NCBI GenBank assembly: GCA_017643365.1
Contig: JAEPNO010000003.1
Span: 186,001 to 250,000 of the forward strand
Reading direction: 5' to 3'
DNA: 64,000 bases
DNA from: Balneolaceae bacterium
GTDB lineage: Bacteria > Bacteroidota > Rhodothermia > Balneolales > Balneolaceae
This document shows positions 22,429 through 31,834 of the stretch, piece after piece. Both the position numbers and the translations under genes were made by a program. Position 1 is the first letter of the stretch, and each line of letters opens with the position of its first letter. The notes beneath the pieces were generated by a model that saw nothing but the letters and a program-made list of their open reading frames with translations, made no database searches and was not told the DNA's origin.

Positions 22429-25257
22429 CTACTTACTCAAGTACAAGCTCTTAAACTCGAACGGCTTTCTGAAATGCTCATCATTGAAATCCTTGGCAAA
22501 GTAGATGCTTTCGCCCGTTGATTTCATCTCAGGGCCAAGCTCTTTCTTCACGCCCGGGAATTTATCAAAAGGAAATACCGGCTCCTTGATGGCCCAGCAC
22601 GTCAATTTCGATTTGGTATCGAATTCTTTCAACTTTGCACCCAACATCACTTTTACACCTATTCCGGCTTCCGGAACCTGATTCGCTTTTGCTAAGAAAG
22701 GCACGGTTCGGGTGGTACGTGGATTGGCTTCAATCACGAACACTTTTTCATCTTTCACCGCATACTGCACGTTCAGGAATCCGATTACGTTCAGCGCTTT
22801 GGCTATTTTCTTTTGATAATCGCGGATGGTAGCCTGTACTTCTTCGCTGAGTGAATACGGCGGAATTACCGCCGTAGAATCACCCGAATGCACTCCGGCC
22901 GGCTCGATATGCTGCATCATCCCCGAAATATGAAGCTCATCTCCATCAAACACCGAATCCACATCCACCTCAATGGCATGCTCGAGATATTTGTCAATGA
23001 GGAAAGCGTTTTCGGGATGCGTTTTCAAAATTCGATCCACATAACGCTCCAATTCCTCGCGCTTCACCGCAATTCGCATTCCCTGTCCACCCAACACATA
23101 ACTTGGACGAATTAACACCGGATACCCGATTCGATCGGCAATTTCCAATGCGCCGGATACCTCGGTGGCTGTTCCGTAAGCAGGAAACGGAATATCATTT
23201 CCGATTAAAATATCAGAAAATTCTCCACGATCTTCAGCTAGGTTGATATTCTCGAACGCCGTTCCAAAAATATTGATTCCGGCTTTCACTAAGCGTTTTC
23301 CAAGTTTTAAGGCGGTTTGTCCACCCACTTGAATGATTACGCCTTCCGGATTTTCATGCTCGATGATATCCAACACGCGCTCCCAATACACCGGCTCGAA
23401 ATACAGTTTATCAGCGATATCAAAATCGGTAGAAACTGTCTCGGGATTACAGTTGATCATGATCGCTTCGTAGCCCATTTCTTTAGTGGCCAGTACCGCA
23501 TGCACACACGAGTAATCAAACTCTATGCCCTGCCCAATTCGGTTAGGACCTGATCCCAGAATAATCACTTTTTTGCGATCGGTTACGATGCTTTCGTTCT
23601 CGCCTTCATAGCTGGAATAGTAGTACGGAGTTTGCGCCGGGAACTCTGCCGCACAAGTATCCACTACTTTGAACGCCGGTTTTAAACCAAGTTCTAAGCG
23701 TCGAGCACGAACGTCGTCATCGGTAACTTTTTCTCCACCTTTGCTGGTGAGCCAGGCAATTTGTGAATCCGAGAATCCCGCTTGTTTCAGCTCGAAAAAC
23801 TCTTCTTTGGTGATTTCTTCCAGTGCCTGACCTTCGGTTCGATTTTCAAGCGAAACCATGTACCTGATTTGCTGCAAAAACCATGGATCAATTTTGGTGA
23901 TATCGGCAATTTCCTCTACCGATGCCCCTAATTTGAAGGCGTTTCGTACTTGAAGTGAGCGGTCCCAATAGGGCTTCATCAAGCGTTGGCTTACTTCTTT
24001 TCGATTGATTTCTTCGAAGCCATCGGCGCCTAATCCTGAGCGACCGATTTCCATACTTTGCCACGCTTTGTTCAGGGCTTCGGGGAAGTTTCGCCCAATG
24101 CTCATCACTTCGCCCACTGCTTTCATTTGAGTGGATAGCTCTTCATCCGCGCCGGGGAATTTATCGAAGTTGAATCGAGGTACTTTGCATACTACATAAT
24201 CGATACTCGGCTCGAAACAGGCCGATGTGGTTCCTGTGATCTGATTTTTAAGCTCATCCAAGGTATAACCAACCGCTAATTTGGTGGCCACTTTCGCAAT
24301 CGGATAACCCGTTGCTTTAGATGCCAGCGCGGAAGAGCGACTCACTCTCGGGTTGATCTCAATCGCCACAAAACGATCGCTGCCCGGTTCAACAGCAAAC
24401 TGCACGTTACAACCACCGGCAAAGGTCCCAATCGAGCGCATCATCTTAATGGCTGCATCCCGCAAAATCTGATATTGTTTATCGGTGAGCGTTTGGGTTG
24501 GCGCAACCGTCACCGAATCGCCGGTGTGGACGCCCATCGGATCCATATTTTCGATTCCGCAAATAATCACCACATTGTCGTTGGCATCACGAAGCAGTTC
24601 CAACTCGTACTCTTTCCACCCAAAAATGGATTCTTCGATCAACACCGAGTGCACCGGACTCATTTCCAGTCCACGAAGCACCATCTTATCGAAATCTTCC
24701 TCTTCCCAAACAATTCCGCCGCCGGCACCACCCATGGTAAACGACGGACGAATTACGATCGGAAGCCCACCTAACTCTTCCTTGATTTCTTTAGCGTCGA
24801 GCAGGGATTCTGCCTGTCTACTTCTACATTGCTCGATTCCGATTTCTTCCATGCGATCGCGGAATAACTGTCGATCTTCGGTCAATTCTACGGCAGCAAT
24901 GTCTACCCCAATTATCTTGATGCCCTTTTTGTCCCAATAACCTTGCTTTTCCAAATCGCGACACAGATTCAGCCCGGTCTGACCGCCCATAGTTGGGAGT
25001 ACCGCATCCGGGTTTTCTTTTTCTACGATCTCGCGGATCGAGTCGGTAGTCATCGGCAGCATGTAAATGGCATCCGCCATAATCGGATCCGTCATAATCG
25101 TGGCCGGATTCGAGTTGATAAGTACGATTTCGTAGCCTTCTTCTTTCAAAGAGCGGCACGATTGCGAGCCGGAATAATCAAACTCGCAAGCTTGACCGAT
25201 TACGATTGGTCCTGATCCGATAATTAAAATTTTGTGAATGTCGTCGCGTCTAGGCAT
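22429..25257 (-). CDS. carB: Carbamoyl-phosphate synthase large subunit, without the regulatory domain
   Basis: A 942-residue subunit that makes carbamoyl phosphate from ammonia (supplied by CarA), bicarbonate and ATP, for pyrimidine and arginine synthesis. Two ATP-grasp halves are present: the first near [17 protein letters not shown], the second near [17 protein letters not shown]. The chain ends about six residues after the second ATP-grasp region ([17 protein letters not shown]...). E. coli CarB has about 1073 residues; the missing ~130 are the MGS-like domain that binds UMP and ornithine. No remnant of it lies downstream. Short CarB proteins are, as I recall, known in Bacteroidota. It follows carA. 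Confidence 0.95.
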
Positions 25258-25448: not shown

Positions 25449-26570
25449 TCATGCTTCTACTCCTTTTTGCTCGTTCATCATATTCACAAACTGATCGAAC
25501 AAATAGGCGGAGTCATGTGGTCCGGGTGAAGCTTCGGGATGGTATTGCACCGAAAATCCGGGGAAATTTTTAAATCTGAGCCCTTCCACGGTGTCGTCGT
25601 TTAGGTTGATGTGCGTGATTGAGGCAACATCCTCGGTTACGCTTTCTTCGATCACACCAAAGCCATGATTTTGCGTGGAGATTTCCACTAAACCGGTTTC
25701 CAGGTTTTTCACGGGATGATTGGCTCCACGGTGACCTACAAACATCTTCCCAACTTTGATGCCTTCGCTCATGGCCATCAACTGGTGACCAAGGCAAATC
25801 CCGAACAACGGCTTTCCGCTGGATTTGGCGTACTCCACAACTTCAAGGGCATATTCTCCGGTTGGGTTTGGATCTCCGGGTCCGTTTGAGAAAAAGAAAC
25901 CGTCGGCATCCCAAGCTTTAATCTCTTCGAGGGAAGTTTGTGCGGGAAACACCCGAAGTGTACATCCACGAGCAACCAAACTGTTAATGATATTCTGCTT
26001 AATTCCGTAATCGAAAGCGGCTACTTTGAATTGCGATTCACTTTCGGGCTGGAAAGTTTGAGCTTCATCGCGTGTTACTTTTGATGCCAACTCCAGACCT
26101 TTCATGTCTTCCCAGTCTTTCGCCATCTGAACCAATTTTTCTTCATCCAGTTCGGTGGATGAAATCACGGCGTTCATCACTCCTTTTTCACGAATGTGGC
26201 GAACCAATGCGCGCGTATCCACTCCGGAAATTCCTACGATTTCATTCTCGTCGAGATATTCGTGCAAGCTTCCATCCGCCATTGGGTTGCTGTACTCCCA
26301 TGAAAATGCTCGGACGATTATTCCAGCCACCATCACTTTTCGATGCTCGTCGTCGCGAGCCATGGTACCGTAATTTCCGATATGGGGATAAGTCATCATC
26401 ATAAGTTGACCGTAGTAACTGGGATCAGTGAAGATTTCCTGGTAACCGGTCATACTGGTGTTGAAGCACAATTCGCCGCCGGTGATACCTTCGTGGCCAA
26501 CTGCCCAGCCGTGCGCGACCGTGCCGTCACTCAGTGCGAGGATTGCTTTTTTTCTAGGTTGAAGAGACAT
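25449..26570 (-). CDS. carA: Carbamoyl-phosphate synthase small subunit (glutaminase)
   Basis: A 373-residue subunit that takes ammonia from glutamine and passes it to CarB. The class-I amidotransferase site has Cys259 (FGICLGHQL) and the His/Glu motif VQYHPEASPGPHD. The N-terminal half (LCFNTSMTGYQEI) is the CarA-specific domain. The ATG lies two bases after the stop of a small leader frame (26573-26668), suggesting coupled translation. The gene is first in carA-carB and has a terminator in its leader. Confidence 0.96.
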   Translation of the reverse strand: MSLQPRKKAILALSDGTVAHGWAVGHEGITGGELCFNTSMTGYQEIFTDPSYYGQLMMMTYPHIGNYGTMARDDEHRKVMVAGIIVRAFSWEYSNPMADGSLHEYLDENEIVGISGVDTRALVRHIREKGVMNAVISSTELDEEKLVQMAKDWEDMKGLELASKVTRDEAQTFQPESESQFKVAAFDYGIKQNIINSLVARGCTLRVFPAQTSLEEIKAWDADGFFFSNGPGDPNPTGEYALEVVEYAKSSGKPLFGICLGHQLMAMSEGIKVGKMFVGHRGANHPVKNLETGLVEISTQNHGFGVIEESVTEDVASITHINLNDDTVEGLRFKNFPGFSVQYHPEASPGPHDSAYLFDQFVNMMNEQKGVEA

Positions 26571-26572
26571 GC

Positions 26573-26668
26573 CTATTGGTTTGGATTGGGAATTTGAGGA
26601 TCAAAAAAAATCCGACTACGAAACAACGCGTCGGATTCTAAAAATATGTGGTAAACCAAAAATGCCAT
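26573..26668 (-). CDS. Possible leader peptide of carAB (31 residues, U-rich)
   Basis: A short frame starts MAFLVYHIFL, runs through the terminator hairpin, and stops (TAG) two bases before the carA ATG. The first 11 codons are U-rich (runs UUUUU, UUU, UUUUU). CAGGG sits about eight bases upstream of its ATG and could bind a ribosome. This is the layout of the E. coli pyrBI leader, where a ribosome that keeps up with a polymerase paused at U-runs stops the terminator from folding. Translation of this frame is not shown. Confidence 0.5.
   Translation of the reverse strand: MAFLVYHIFLESDALFRSRIFFDPQIPNPNQ
26603..26637 (-). terminator. Intrinsic terminator in the carAB leader
   Basis: On the - strand an 8-bp perfect stem (AATCCGAC with GTCGGATT) closes a 13-base loop and is followed by eight U. 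It ends about 33 bases before carA. A promoter lies upstream (26764-26794), so it sits inside the carAB leader and is likely a control point, not the end of another gene. Confidence 0.85.
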
Positions 26669-26763
26669 TAGCACCCTGCCGATTTGAGTTTAGGGTTTGC
26701 CAATGGATCAAAGCTATGTAGTGCTAACAAATGTATTTTCAAGTGAGCTTTGTTGAGGTTTGC

Positions 26764-26794
26764 CAAAGATACAAAGGGGCGAGCAGTGATTCAA
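26764..26794 (-). promoter_or_regulatory. Bacteroidota-type promoter for carAB
   Basis: On the - strand TTG (26794-26792), 20 bases, then TATCTTTG (26771-26764). This fits the TTG-N(19-23)-TAnnTTTG promoter of Bacteroidota. It predicts a leader of roughly 180-190 bases. Within the leader TTAGCAC (26727-26721) can pair with GTGCTAA (26674-26668), which overlaps the start of the leader frame. Confidence 0.6.
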
Positions 26795-26885
26795 TTTGAA
26801 TCGTGAGTGTTTTTCGAATTTTGATTACTTGATTTGGGAATAGCTAGCAATAGGATTTGTATTCCGACAGAAGCACAAATTAGTC

Positions 26886-26905
26886 ATTCCCGCGAAGGCG
26901 GGAAT
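26886..26905. repeat. 20-bp palindrome ATTCCC-N8-GGGAAT
   Basis: ATTCCCGCGAAGGCGGGAAT is a widespread intergenic palindrome of the same form as the neisserial dRS3 repeat. It lies in the 667-base gap between carA and the next gene upstream. The frames that run through it are not real genes. Confidence 0.75.
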
Positions 26906-27006
26906 CTAGAGAGCCTTGAAGACACAAGTTTGATTGATTATTCTCCAAATGAGTTGATGGGACAGCGAAAATTGATAAAGCTTCTTATCCATTTATTTAA
27001 TATCAG

Positions 27007-27237: not shown

Positions 27238-27909
27238 TTAAAACCCTATCAAACTTACATTTAGGCTCACATACGATTCGTCAATTTCAAATAATCGACC
27301 AATATCGATTCCGCCTAAAATCCCAAATTTTGATTCTGGCTTGAATCTTAAAAATAGGTTTGAACTCAGACCAACACTTCGAATCCCTACTTTTCCATCC
27401 GGTGTGGGGTCGAATTCTAGACAGGGAAAAGTACCACAATCGGCTCTTTTGTAGTAATTTTTGGTGTCGTACGCCCAAAATCCACCAAATGAAATCCCAA
27501 TATTATTCTTATTCATCAGCCGCTGTTGAATTATCAGTTTGCGTGATCGATTCGCTGAGATTGATGCCGTCGCAAAAATTTCATCAAAAATCTTTACCGT
27601 GCCGTCCATCCCAAATCCGTGTACCATCGATAGCCCCCAACCCCATTGGTCCCTATTGCTAACTAAAATAGTTGCATTTATAGGTATCGGGAATTCACTT
27701 TCGGTATCGTAATTTTCGTTCTGTTTTTGGATGAAATGACTTTCTTCAACTCCATGCTTTTTAGCCGTTATTGCAAATCCTGCGTCATATTCTTCATCAA
27801 CAACACTAGGCTCAGTAGTGTTGAACATAACAGATTGGCTCAAAGGCACATGAGTTGCGCAAGCTTGTAACAATAATATAAATGGAATAACCCAGATCAC
27901 TTTCTTCAT
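27238..27909 (-). CDS. Hypothetical lipoprotein with barrel-like strands
   Basis: A 223-residue protein with lipobox LLQAC (Cys17). The mature region has alternating short strands (GIRSVGLSSNLFLRF, SKFGILGGIDIGRLFE, YVSLNVSLIGF-stop) and ends in Phe, as in outer-membrane barrels, but with a lipid anchor. No family recognised. It stands alone upstream of carAB. Confidence 0.7.
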   Translation of the reverse strand: MKKVIWVIPFILLLQACATHVPLSQSVMFNTTEPSVVDEEYDAGFAITAKKHGVEESHFIQKQNENYDTESEFPIPINATILVSNRDQWGWGLSMVHGFGMDGTVKIFDEIFATASISANRSRKLIIQQRLMNKNNIGISFGGFWAYDTKNYYKRADCGTFPCLEFDPTPDGKVGIRSVGLSSNLFLRFKPESKFGILGGIDIGRLFEIDESYVSLNVSLIGF

Positions 27910-28016: not shown

Positions 28017-28355
28017 TCAAGCTGCATTTTTCTGATTTGCTAAACTTCCCGTCATCGTTGCTAATCCACTTACCGCGCCACCAAGTACAGCAGTAATTAA
28101 CACAACTATTAGTGGCGAGCCTACACCGAGCATTTCGGCAATTCGAGTGGAAAGAATGCCATCGTTAGCAATGTGAATGTACAGTGCCTGGCCGCCCCAA
28201 AGTAGAAACAAAGCCACAAATCCCCATACAAACGATATCGCTGCTTTCTCTTTGAATAGATATCCGAAAATCAGACCGGGGATCGCAATGCACCACCAAG
28301 GAAGGAAGAGGTTAAGTAAGAATGCAACGGCTAAAATTAATAATACTAATATCAT
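28017..28355 (-). CDS. Small hypothetical membrane protein
   Basis: A 112-residue protein with about three or four membrane segments (MILVLLILAVAFLLNLFLPW, FVWGFVALFLLWGGQALYI, VVLITAVLGGAVSGLATM). The family is not recognised. It is downstream of the penicillin-acylase gene on the same strand, across an inverted repeat. Confidence 0.65.
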   Translation of the reverse strand: MILVLLILAVAFLLNLFLPWWCIAIPGLIFGYLFKEKAAISFVWGFVALFLLWGGQALYIHIANDGILSTRIAEMLGVGSPLIVVLITAVLGGAVSGLATMTGSLANQKNAA

Positions 28356-28434: not shown

Positions 28435-30855
28435 TTAGTTGCTTTGCAACGTCAGTTCAAACAATGCTTTTTCCGGTTTTTCGCGGTAGAAATTTAGCTC
28501 AAAATGATTTCCAAGACGCCAGTTTTCTACAAAAGCATCGTAATTTGGTGATCCTGGATTGCCGGAAATCCCGCCCGGATACACGCCCCAGCCTTTTACC
28601 TCGGGGCCAAGTTCTACTACCATTCGCCATGAAGGTCCGTAGCCAAATCGGGTGGCATTAATCGCTTCTGCCGAACCTCCGGTGTAAACATCCATGGCAC
28701 CAAAACCGGGAATTTGTCCCACATGCTCAATGTCGTTGTTCATCACAAATCCCCAATTCCAACCTTCACCAATCTTTCCGTAATAGGTGTCCAGCAAATC
28801 GTAGGCATGTTTGTACGCAGCTGTAGCCAAATCTTGTATGGTTTCCTTTTCATCGGTTTCGATGTTATCAATTAAGAAGAAATCCGCATCTGATTTTATT
28901 ACCTCTATAAATCGATCACGATGAGGGTACCGAAGCGAACCATCCACCTGTGCGTATTCATCTCTAAAAACCGAGCGGTAAAACTCTCTAAACCAGTAGT
29001 AGAAAAAGCCCGGTTGTTGTAAATCGGCATCCATTTCAAAATTCCAGCTCGCCATTTGCGACAAAAACTCGATTTCTTTAAAATTCAAACTGTCGCGAAT
29101 TACCCAGTCAATCATTTCAGGCACAATGCTTTCTGCATGCAAACTATAATCATCCATCTGCATGTTCATCATATCTTGAGGAGTGATTTCCTTCATCTCT
29201 TTCAACAGATCGTTAATGCGTTTACCCCTTTCATAGGGTGCGTTTTCATCGGTCAAATAGTATGGATACGATTCCCCCGCCGATTCTTGATTTGCGGAAC
29301 TCACGAAACCACGCGGCGGATTTTTTACATGCGGATTATGTTGATGCGGAATCCAGCCTTGCCAATCAAAAGCCGGGTCGCTGCCATCACTTACTTCCTG
29401 TCCTTGAAAATCCCATTTATTAGGGAATTTCCCATTCACCCACATGGCAATATCACCCTCTGTTGATGCGAACACGAAATTTTGCGCCGGACCAACATAC
29501 GCCTCGAGCGCTGCTACATAATCATCGTAGTTGGATGCTTTATTCAATCCAATAAATGTCTTTAAACTGTTTCCCGGTTCATGCCCAACCCATCGCATGG
29601 CATGATAAATTGGCTCGCGGGTTGTGTCATCAGGATTGGCAACCATCACAGGTCCGTGATGTGTAAAAACCAATGTGTCGATGATGGTTTCTCCGCCTTT
29701 TACTTTTATTTCTTCGATTCTTTTAGTGGTAGAATTCCACTTCCCATCGTTCCAGTATTCGTTTTTTGATGCATCCTTAAACTCAATTTCATACCAATCC
29801 AGAACATCAGATCCGGTATTAGTTACAGAGAATGCCACTTTTTCGTTAAAACCGATCAAAATTCCAGGAATCCCCTGAAAACCTACCCCATATGTATTAT
29901 AGCCCGGAGCGTGTAATTGCATTTCCATCCAAATGGAAGGCATCGACAAACTAAGGTGTGGATCGCCCGCTAAAATGGGATATCCACTTGCTGTTTTTGA
30001 ACCATCCACCGCCCAATTGTTTGAGCCTACGCCGGCGTCCGGCTCCCAAAACTGAATACGTTCGGCGGTTTTGGGGATGAAATCACTTTCAGGCACTTCG
30101 GGCTGAATCGATTCAAAATCCCACGTTCTGTCCTCCGGAATGATCGGATCCACAGAAGCAGGTCGTGTTTTAAAAAACTTATTGATGTATTCCTCACCTA
30201 AAAAGGCTTTAGTACGTGATGTTCGATCGTCGCTACTACCACCGGCTAAGGTGCGCAACATGTTCATATGAAGTAATGAGGTTTTTAAAGGTGTCCATGC
30301 CTCCGGAGCGGCATCTAACACTTTGTATTCTACCGGGTACTCATCCGGCGATAAACTTTCGATGTATGCATTTACTCCATCAGCATATGCTTTTACTATT
30401 CTTGAACTTGATGAGTCTTGCATCACCTTTTCCAGCTTTTTTTCAGCGGCCCAAGGCATGCCCCATCTACGAGTGGTTAAATCGCGATTTTGCACTCCCG
30501 AATTTTCCCCAATCAATTCTGATAAACGCCCGGCAGCATCATACGTCTGGATTTCCATCTGAAACAGCCGCTGTTGCGCAGTGATGTAACCCTGTGCCAT
30601 AAATAAATCATGGTCATTTTGGGCAAAGATGTGCGGAACACGTCGTTCATCGAACACAACCGAAACCTCATCTAACAAGCCATCAATTTCCAAAATCTCG
30701 TTTTCCGGAACCGAAGTTTCTGCATTGGCCCAAAAGCCGGCATCCGGATCGAAGAACTTCCCAAGTGGTGGAATCGAACCGAATTTGGTGTTGAGAACGA
30801 GAAGGCAAGCTACTAATAAAATAGCGGATAGGAATGGGCTACTAAATCGCATCAA
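28435..30855 (-). CDS. Penicillin acylase family (Ntn-hydrolase) protein
   Basis: An 806-residue precursor of the penicillin G / acyl-homoserine-lactone acylase family. These enzymes cut themselves to form two chains, and the new N-terminal Ser of the beta chain is the nucleophile: here Ser278 in DAGVG-SNNWAV. The N-terminal hydrophobic stretch (about 8-23) would export it to the periplasm. The beta chain contains GDPHLSLSMPSIW and later FSVTNTGSD. The family covers penicillin, signal and other amide substrates, so the substrate is open. It is flanked on both sides by related inverted repeats. Confidence 0.92.
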   Translation of the reverse strand: MMRFSSPFLSAILLVACLLVLNTKFGSIPPLGKFFDPDAGFWANAETSVPENEILEIDGLLDEVSVVFDERRVPHIFAQNDHDLFMAQGYITAQQRLFQMEIQTYDAAGRLSELIGENSGVQNRDLTTRRWGMPWAAEKKLEKVMQDSSSSRIVKAYADGVNAYIESLSPDEYPVEYKVLDAAPEAWTPLKTSLLHMNMLRTLAGGSSDDRTSRTKAFLGEEYINKFFKTRPASVDPIIPEDRTWDFESIQPEVPESDFIPKTAERIQFWEPDAGVGSNNWAVDGSKTASGYPILAGDPHLSLSMPSIWMEMQLHAPGYNTYGVGFQGIPGILIGFNEKVAFSVTNTGSDVLDWYEIEFKDASKNEYWNDGKWNSTTKRIEEIKVKGGETIIDTLVFTHHGPVMVANPDDTTREPIYHAMRWVGHEPGNSLKTFIGLNKASNYDDYVAALEAYVGPAQNFVFASTEGDIAMWVNGKFPNKWDFQGQEVSDGSDPAFDWQGWIPHQHNPHVKNPPRGFVSSANQESAGESYPYYLTDENAPYERGKRINDLLKEMKEITPQDMMNMQMDDYSLHAESIVPEMIDWVIRDSLNFKEIEFLSQMASWNFEMDADLQQPGFFYYWFREFYRSVFRDEYAQVDGSLRYPHRDRFIEVIKSDADFFLIDNIETDEKETIQDLATAAYKHAYDLLDTYYGKIGEGWNWGFVMNNDIEHVGQIPGFGAMDVYTGGSAEAINATRFGYGPSWRMVVELGPEVKGWGVYPGGISGNPGSPNYDAFVENWRLGNHFELNFYREKPEKALFELTLQSN

Positions 30856-30937: not shown

Positions 30938-31834
30938 TTACCAGAGCAGCATCTTCATACAGAACACACTACCGCCGCTTTTCAGGAATTCTTCGGTGTT
31001 AAACTCATGAACGATAAAACCTAATTCTTCAAGTTTAGCATTTACCTCGACACACCCTTTTTGGATGAGCACGTTTTTGCCATCCGGACATGTTGCGTTA
31101 CAAGCAAAAAGCTCTTCCGCTTCGAAAGTATTCGCCTCAATAACGGTTGAAAATATCTTCCGAATTTTTGCCAATCCATCTTCGGTAAAAGCTTTCGGAT
31201 AAATCAACACCGTTTCCTCATTTAGAATACACAGACACGTATCGAGGTGGTAGAACTTCTCATCGATTAGCTCAAGAGCAATTACTGGAGTGTCGAGTGT
31301 TTCTGCGATATGATCATACACATCCTTTGAAGATCGATAACCGTATCCGCCCCAAATCAAGCGCTTTTTGTAATGCCAAATAGCATCGCCCATTCCTTCG
31401 AAATCGGTGAATTGCGACTCATCCAAATGGATTACTTTATACGAACTTTCTTCGTACACTTTTTCGATGTGCGGAACCTCTCCTTTTCGTTCAGGAGAAT
31501 GCATCACGCTCATAATCACTTCTTTGGTACCATCCGCTTTTATATTCGGCAAGCTTTGATTCGCACAAAACACCATATCGGGATATTCTTCTTGTGGCCC
31601 AACTTCGTGCACATACAATCCTAGATTATTGTAGGCATCTCTCAGCCTATTCCATTCTGTTTCCGCTTCTTCTTTGTTGATGTCGCCAATATTGCCTTCC
31701 ATATGCGGATTGATCACATATTTCACATCAAAATATTTAGGATGTACCACCATTACTTTGCCCGGTGCCGGCATATCTTCAAGATCCGCGAGGGTAAAAT
31801 CCAGCTGATCTGATTGCGTGATTACTCTGCTCAT
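30938..31834 (-). CDS. Dimethylarginine dimethylaminohydrolase / arginine deiminase-like hydrolase
   Basis: A 298-residue protein with the amidinotransferase fold. Motifs are DMVFCANQSL (substrate Asp region), FYHLDTCLCIL (catalytic His) and GGSVFCMKMLLW at the C-terminus, with the nucleophile Cys. This matches the DDAH group that hydrolyses methylated arginine or related guanidines to citrulline. No signal peptide is seen. Role in this organism is not known. It is next to the acylase gene but separated from it by an inverted repeat. Confidence 0.88.
   Translation of the reverse strand: MSRVITQSDQLDFTLADLEDMPAPGKVMVVHPKYFDVKYVINPHMEGNIGDINKEEAETEWNRLRDAYNNLGLYVHEVGPQEEYPDMVFCANQSLPNIKADGTKEVIMSVMHSPERKGEVPHIEKVYEESSYKVIHLDESQFTDFEGMGDAIWHYKKRLIWGGYGYRSSKDVYDHIAETLDTPVIALELIDEKFYHLDTCLCILNEETVLIYPKAFTEDGLAKIRKIFSTVIEANTFEAEELFACNATCPDGKNVLIQKGCVEVNAKLEELGFIVHEFNTEEFLKSGGSVFCMKMLLW

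Follow-up and report, generated by a model that had tools for sequence, protein, structure and literature searches.

The closest described counterparts of the leader considered here are the pyrL leaders of the enterobacterial pyrBI operons, whose layout is regulatory; the Salmonella pyrBI attenuator with PyrL has the same layout as that of E. coli. In the Thermus pyr operon, PyrR controls leader translation. In E. coli K-12, pyrL has 44 codons, includes a U-rich stretch and a hairpin with T8, and stops 3 nt before pyrB. A ribosome moving forward along pyrL hinders termination at its hairpin, as described in the available part of PMC5021804. Control of carAB itself has been studied in E. coli, where, according to the excerpted text of PMC6245113, UTP-dependent reiterative transcription occurs at P1, control is exerted at initiation, and attenuation is said not to act at the P2 promoter. 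Leader-peptide systems are known in Proteobacteria and Actinobacteria, with Firmicutes added in the accessible portion of PMC2965389. Re-initiation at adjacent leader genes has been proposed for many phyla, Bacteroidetes included, in the sections available of Korolev et al. 2016 (PMC4833913). In the open-licence literature searched, no description of the present carA leader, nor of any Balneolaceae attenuator, has been found.

The locus described here lies in a 64,000-nt stretch of a Balneolaceae genome (the window), for which a pyrL-type, UTP-sensing attenuator before carAB had been proposed. Like E. coli pyrL, it has a leader frame that runs through an intrinsic terminator with U8, a U-rich stretch and a place before a pyrimidine pathway operon. 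The T8 lies 32 nt from carA (23 nt from pyrB in pyrL), and the 31-codon leader stops 2 nt before carA (3 nt before pyrB). The operon is carAB and not pyrBI, no sequence similarity to pyrL is claimed, and an origin convergent with the enterobacterial leader is assumed. With E. coli carAB the locus shares the operon and UTP among the possible signals, but the control there is at initiation.

Anatomy of the carA leader

All features of the leader lie on the minus strand. The genes carA (25449..26570; carbamoyl-phosphate synthase small subunit, by Pfam and NCBIfam, TIGR01368) and carB (22429..25257; large subunit, 942 aa, by Pfam and NCBIfam) are preceded by the promoter TTG-N20-TATCTTTG (26764..26794), with TTG at 26794-26792, 20 nt, and TATCTTTG at 26771-26764. 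The promoter was assigned by the consensus TTG-N20-TAnnTTTG, which we take to be the Bacteroidota type, and its TATCTT box is kept across an alignment of 28 leaders of the window's type (type A, below). A generic scan for E. coli-type promoters found none, which is what a promoter of the TTG-N20-TAnnTTTG kind would lead one to expect.

Downstream of the promoter, a candidate 5' hairpin, P1 (26709..26752), would be formed by CAAAGCT/AGCTTTG with TTAGCA in its loop; P1 is resembled, by eye, in most type A leaders. A second hairpin, P2 (26661..26709), is predicted to pair the AUG of the leader frame together with its ribosome-binding region. Pairing of TTAGCAC with GTGCTAA had been suggested to cover the leader start. 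Both segments are present (26727-26721 and 26674-26668), but in the predicted fold the start pairs with the nearer segment, within P2, and not with TTAGCAC.

The leader frame (26573..26668) begins with ATG at 26668-26666, passes through the terminator and reads MAFLVYHIFLESDALFRSRIFFDPQIPNPNQ over its 31 codons, then TAG, which ends at 26573; two bases (GC) separate it from the carA ATG at 26570. Between the leader start and the terminator lies a U-rich stretch (26640..26662), with UUUUU at 26662-26658, UUU at 26655-26653 and UUUUU at 26644-26640, which is a candidate pause region for RNA polymerase. The promoter, frame, U-runs and stop thus lie where the original prediction had placed them.

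The intrinsic terminator (26603..26637) reads AAUCCGAC GCG..CG.A GUCGGA followed by U8. Its arms are AATCCGAC (26637-26630) and GTCGGATT (26616-26609), and the T8 occupies 26610-26603. A perfect 8-bp stem with eight U had been described; each is present, but since the stem draws on two residues of the U-run, the full 8 bp and a free run of eight U exclude one another. The hairpin folds at -15.3 kcal/mol compared with -5.7 for shuffles, and the wider stretch around it has a fold z of -3.5. A generic terminator scan made no call at this hairpin by its own rules: the tool has a loop limit of 8, and the perfect arms here stand 13 nt apart.

Several other features of the neighborhood were recorded. 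An inverted repeat, CATTCCCGCGAAGGCGGGAATC, lies upstream of the carA promoter (26885-26906) and has five copies in the same genome at one mismatch or fewer, which makes it a small dispersed repeat. A penicillin amidase family protein with a TTG start (PF01804, 658.9 bits) is encoded at 28435-30855, and the frames between this gene and carA (27238-27909 and 28017-28355) have no Pfam or NCBIfam match. Also near carAB, at 30938-31834, is a gene for an arginine dihydrolase/dimethylargininase-like protein (206.6 bits, cut-off 450), which may link to arginine metabolism.

Conservation of the leader hairpin

For comparison, carA loci were taken from 92 family genomes (89 with carA; loci for the best matches). 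Named GTDB genomes were added, from which 80 of the 92 loci found were kept, as were more leaders from the family genomes. Removal of copies left 110 distinct leaders, 97 of them with the hairpin TCCGRC...GYCGGA-T. The 13 remaining leaders are L101, L102-L111, L134, which has a changed arm and a T8 hairpin, and L141, on a cut contig.

The pattern TCCGRC N6-20 GYCGGATTTTTTT is present in 83 of 89 family genomes and its reversed control in none. In all 83 a match lies within about 300 nt before carA (coordinates compared by eye), and one genome with two carA copies has one match at each. Of the six genomes without a match, three yielded no carA locus, in two the contig breaks off shortly before the gene, and the sixth (G012, leader L134) has the changed arm yet keeps the hairpin and T8. 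The possibility of a generic terminator used genome-wide was rejected, as the window's own genome has one match and matches away from carA occur in only 2 of 89 genomes (G041 and G047, one extra each).

By their appearance, the hairpin leaders include 35 of type A, which is the window's type, 34 of type B and 14 of type C (Fodinibius and kin). Types A and B are not strict clades; each needs two changes on a tree of CarA. The counts below refer to 81 leaders (35 A, 32 B and 14 C). The 16 hairpin leaders outside this set are L154, which is on a cut contig and has no start, L166, the near copies L144 and L158, and 12 others (L165, L167, L168 and nine deeper branches); the shuffle test covered the 81. 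In each of these 12, a frame with a start codon crosses the hairpin and reaches its end at -22 to +20 of carA. The terminator has exactly eight T in all 81 counted leaders and in 96 of the 97; the exception, L166, has nine T, an ATG far upstream at -149 and a frame end at +20.

The arm letters TCCG/CGGA, which are part of the search pattern, and the U8 show scarcely any variation, even though pairing alone would suffice for a terminator; the presence of the pattern in 83 of 89 genomes means that alternatives are rare at carA. In one record (CP051242.1), two carA loci near opposite ends have an identical leader (L032, L033), probably through assembly overlap.

In another family of the same order, three of four leaders (L180, L183 and L185) have a TCCGAC hairpin with nine T, and L181 is without it. 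Among 26 leaders examined (L182-L207, a set with L183 and L185 but neither L180 nor L181), 17 of the 24 with a T-run have a bridging frame, compared with 10.4 expected from shuffled sequence, which is no more than suggestive of a bridging frame in wider relatives. In Bacteroidota outside the class, no such layout was noticed by eye in 32 loci (L208-L239), of which 7 have no carA match and at least 2 more have a spurious one.

The leader frame and the start of carA

In all 81 counted leaders, a stop-free frame passes through the intrinsic terminator and ends near the start of carA. The frame ends at -14 to +26 of carA in 80 of the 81 (33.5 expected with shuffled spacers) and at -4 to +4 in 49 (11.8 expected). 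No stop occurs in 4187 leader-frame codons, compared with 404 in 8313 codons of the other two frames. Each of the 35 type A leaders has exactly one ATG at 31-37 nt upstream of the hairpin, and in all 35 the frame that it opens continues to -14 to +17 of carA (9.2 expected with the spacer shuffled), over spacers from hairpin to carA of 32 to 281 nt. For types B and C, the longest frame was chosen where several starts fell in the allowed range. The 29 type B leaders that have an ATG in range are all open to carA (19.6 expected), as are all 32 placed starts, two of which are GTG (L147 and L170). Type C has no ATG; in 14 of 14 leaders a frame that starts with TTG, 111-117 nt upstream of the hairpin, stays open until -4 to +23 of carA. 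The distance from start to hairpin is 42-59 nt in type B and 88 nt in E. coli pyrL. A leader frame open by chance was rejected by the shuffled-spacer tests.

The original prediction had named the loss of frame or hairpin in related genomes as an outcome that would speak against it. The frame, the terminator and the stop-start spacing are instead clearly present in the relatives, and the geometry of E. coli pyrL matches this family-wide layout.

These results also bear on whether the hairpin might simply terminate transcription that arrives from upstream, the open leader frame being accidental. A gene does end shortly before the hairpin in nine deeper-branching loci (by eye; four translated). 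In the window, however, the upstream gene and the hairpin are separated by a promoter of the conserved type, and the frame is open far beyond chance. The shuffled-spacer test refutes this explanation for type A, and overall it is scarcely credible. In the deeper branches (L065, L067, L089, L090, L092, L093, L095, L098 and L100), the gene directly before the attenuator encodes a small membrane protein that ends in APFIYALF (translated in L067, L090, L095 and L100) and is DUF5989 by Pfam in L067. Some leaders outside the 81 begin at a GTG right after the upstream gene (DUF5989 in L067).

Spacers of 150-281 nt occur in L003, L027, L033, L038, L040-L044, L048, L050, L113-L115 and L117. Some have a CCCCTC...GAGGGG-like sequence by eye; they arose several times, with the leader frame open each time. 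Inverted repeats in three long spacers were examined and nothing came of them.

The commonest frame ends are -2/-3 (type A), +4 (type B) and +23 (type C). Korolev et al. (PMC4833913) describe, in the portion available, a short frame that adjoins the structural gene, with a Bacteroidetes distance peak of 11-14 bp and no need of a terminator; the ends found here differ from that peak. The re-initiation proposed there, Bacteroidetes included, is in line with an alternative in which the frame serves only to bring ribosomes to carA, and in which the hairpin terminates in part, constitutively and without response to any signal. The closeness of the frame end to carA in the 49 leaders is in keeping with such pure translational coupling, as is the scarcity of Shine-Dalgarno-like 4-mers before carA (6 of 81: 5 of 35 in type A, 1 of 32 in type B and 0 of 14 in type C). 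However, a hairpin with U8 inside a coding frame, kept at carA wherever visible (with one changed arm), would be costly, and the same layout is regulatory in pyrL (available text of PMC5021804). Pure coupling is therefore considered improbable.

Peptide sequence and ribosome passage

Two reading frames through the hairpin are common, giving IRRGIRSRIFF and SDTVSVVGFF, and the third is rare. A CarA tree built by a quick method for 62 of the 81 leaders (59 inner branches, of which 18 are starred and 22 open) places at least nine changes of frame and at least nine changes of spacer-length class, and the frame is always open. Since the frame through the hairpin has switched at least nine times, what is kept, as judged by comparing sequences, is an open road for the ribosome through the terminator to carA, and the peptide is irrelevant. 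A conserved peptide or a run of regulatory codons, with the peptides read by eye, was rejected on the same grounds.

An amino-acid-specific attenuator, in which the ribosome would stall at particular leader codons such as those for arginine, might be considered because carbamoyl phosphate also feeds arginine synthesis and the IRRGIRSRIFF frame has several arginines. The other common frame, SDTVSVVGFF, has no arginine, and with the repeated frame switches this explanation is strongly disfavored and very improbable.

RNA structure at the leader start

Upstream of the leader start, an SD-like 4-mer is present in 28 of 35 leaders of type A, 4 of 32 of type B and 0 of 14 of type C. As these 4-mers are scarce in types B and C, translation of those leaders is argued from frame conservation alone, in type C with a TTG start.

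The P2 structure was written from one row (L020) and then scored on relatives of the same length. On 13 distinct type A rows, 85.8% of cells are paired compared with 79.7% in shuffles (0 of 500), the covariation score is 0.243 compared with 0.144 (0 of 500), and five pairs are changed on both sides (7 of 500 shuffles); further pair types are not above shuffles (164 of 500), and slid versions of the structure score lower. On 16 rows, with L037 and the near copies L021 and L043 added, 84.1% of cells are paired (76.8% in shuffles; 0 of 500), the covariation score is 0.268 (0.157; 0 of 500) and six pairs are changed on both sides (9 of 500). Kinship of the rows can inflate this covariation, and the P2 of the window, being of another length, was assessed by folding. 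Type A leaders fold around the start at -15.6 kcal/mol compared with -12.4 with shuffled upstream sequence (median z -1.46). In type A, judged by eye, the P1 loop (UCCAU) might pair with the P2 loop (AUGGA). In type C (the L119-L146 set), two or three hairpins lie, by eye, before the terminator within the leader frame and resemble the pyrL pause hairpin.

These observations raise the question of whether leader translation itself is the regulated step. P2 would then be a switch at the leader ribosome-binding site, and a ligand or PyrR would hold it shut when pyrimidine is plentiful, leaving the leader untranslated so that the terminator forms. The position of P2 over the leader SD and AUG, its pairing and covariation above shuffles and the stable fold around the start all point this way, and PyrR would be available as another pyrimidine sensor, with homologues in 84 of 89 family genomes at E<=1e-25 (over the cut-off in 46 of 89). 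One homologue lies about 8 kb before the first base of the window on the same contig, where its 139.2 bits fall slightly short of the cut-off of 140; the frame after it is presumably pyrB by its motif, and by eye no comparable leader precedes that operon in the 400 nt examined. In the Thermus pyr operon, control of leader translation would likewise regulate a terminator through the overlapping leader, and a PyrR homologue is present here too.

On the other side, the difference in start accessibility is small (0.344 in type A compared with 0.418 in shuffles, with 24 of 35 leaders below the shuffle mean), and RNAalifold gave no consensus pairs on an unrefined alignment of 24 P2 regions. P2 also belongs to type A; in type B, the leader starts, by eye, some 20 nt downstream of the promoter. 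Unlike in PyrR-regulated systems, no Rfam family, PyrR elements included, was at or near its gathering score in the window leader and the loci of 19 relatives. The Rfam matches by E-value were rejected as far below gathering: snoR4, psbT-asRNA, Bacteroidales-1, Qrr and nuoG in the window, and MIR393 (the best; E 0.0074, 28.7 of 60 bits), snoZ173, MIR774 and SraC_RyeA in relatives. The switch at P2 is rather unlikely, though a better candidate than pure coupling.

The U-rich stretch and the pyrimidine signal

From AUG to hairpin, type A leaders have 48% T and 4.04 T4+ runs per 100 nt with no A-run. Their spacers have 0.83 such runs per 100 nt, and the 90 nt ahead of the start have 0.60; as the leaders within one type are related, this enrichment amounts to one or few events. 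Type B has 27% T from start to hairpin and 1.15 T4+ runs per 100 nt compared with 1.64 in its spacer. The long type C leader has 29% T and 1.24 runs per 100 nt, and is pyrimidine-rich only beside the hairpin, where the final 30 nt have 36% T and 33% C. The predicted U-rich pause region is therefore conserved in type A but not in type B, with a mixed picture in type C, and pausing at U-runs cannot be the family-wide signal because U-runs are not enriched in type B. UTP-dependent pausing is plausible for leaders of the window's type, and sensing of UTP by U-run pausing has a little less than an even chance. A CATA-like motif about 18 nt before the hairpin (loose pattern; 34 of 35 in A, 21 of 32 in B and 4 of 14 in C) is unexplained.

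The absence of the U-rich stretch from type B and the leader start inside a covarying hairpin in type A both set these leaders apart from pyrL. It is conceivable, though we give it a minority chance, that they form a modular ribosome-relay switch, in which one core, the U8 hairpin in a frame-indifferent leader that passes the ribosome on to carA, is joined to at least three starting modules that read different signals or one pyrimidine signal differently. The modules would be a start in an RNA switch (A), a nearly leaderless start (B) and a long structured leader with a TTG start (C), and type A would contain a pyrimidine-sensing RNA not yet described.

The CarB of the window had been said to lack the domain that UMP binds, which is right: this 942-aa protein reaches profile position 922 of 1058 and has no match to the MGS (UMP/ornithine) domain. 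Among the family's MGS matches listed, all are in frames of 580 aa or less, too short for CarB, and CarB looks to be without this domain family-wide. Transcriptional control may act in place of UMP feedback on CarB.

Proposed mechanism

The locus very probably contains a ribosome-relieved attenuator of the pyrL kind. The fuller reading, a translation-coupled transcription attenuator with a ribosome relay, is likely too, with somewhat less assurance; both are drawn from comparative sequence analysis. Judging from the promoter, transcription would start about 90 nt before the short leader frame. If no ribosome is close behind the polymerase, the hairpin with U8 would form and transcription would end before carA. 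A ribosome that follows closely on the leader frame would cover a hairpin arm and so permit read-through into carAB. The same ribosome would end beside the carA start and probably re-initiate there, because carA is mostly without its own Shine-Dalgarno-like sequence.

A shortage of pyrimidine would be the best candidate for the signal read by leaders of type A, to which the window belongs. Low UTP would slow the polymerase at the U-rich stretch so that the ribosome can catch up, which is how E. coli pyrBI works, and the folding of P2 over the leader start probably sets the ease of ribosome loading.

Biological significance

The carAB genes encode the first step of pyrimidine and arginine synthesis. 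An attenuator of the pyrL kind can work only if a ribosome follows the polymerase closely, and the generality of such close coupling outside Proteobacteria is debated. A family-wide conserved attenuator of this kind makes sense only with close coupling, so that it would be comparative evidence for coupling in Balneolota, and it would also give a ready reporter of it. The attenuator could explain how carAB is controlled where CarB is without a UMP-binding domain, and it hints that a distant phylum came to this solution as well, on another of the pyrimidine operons.
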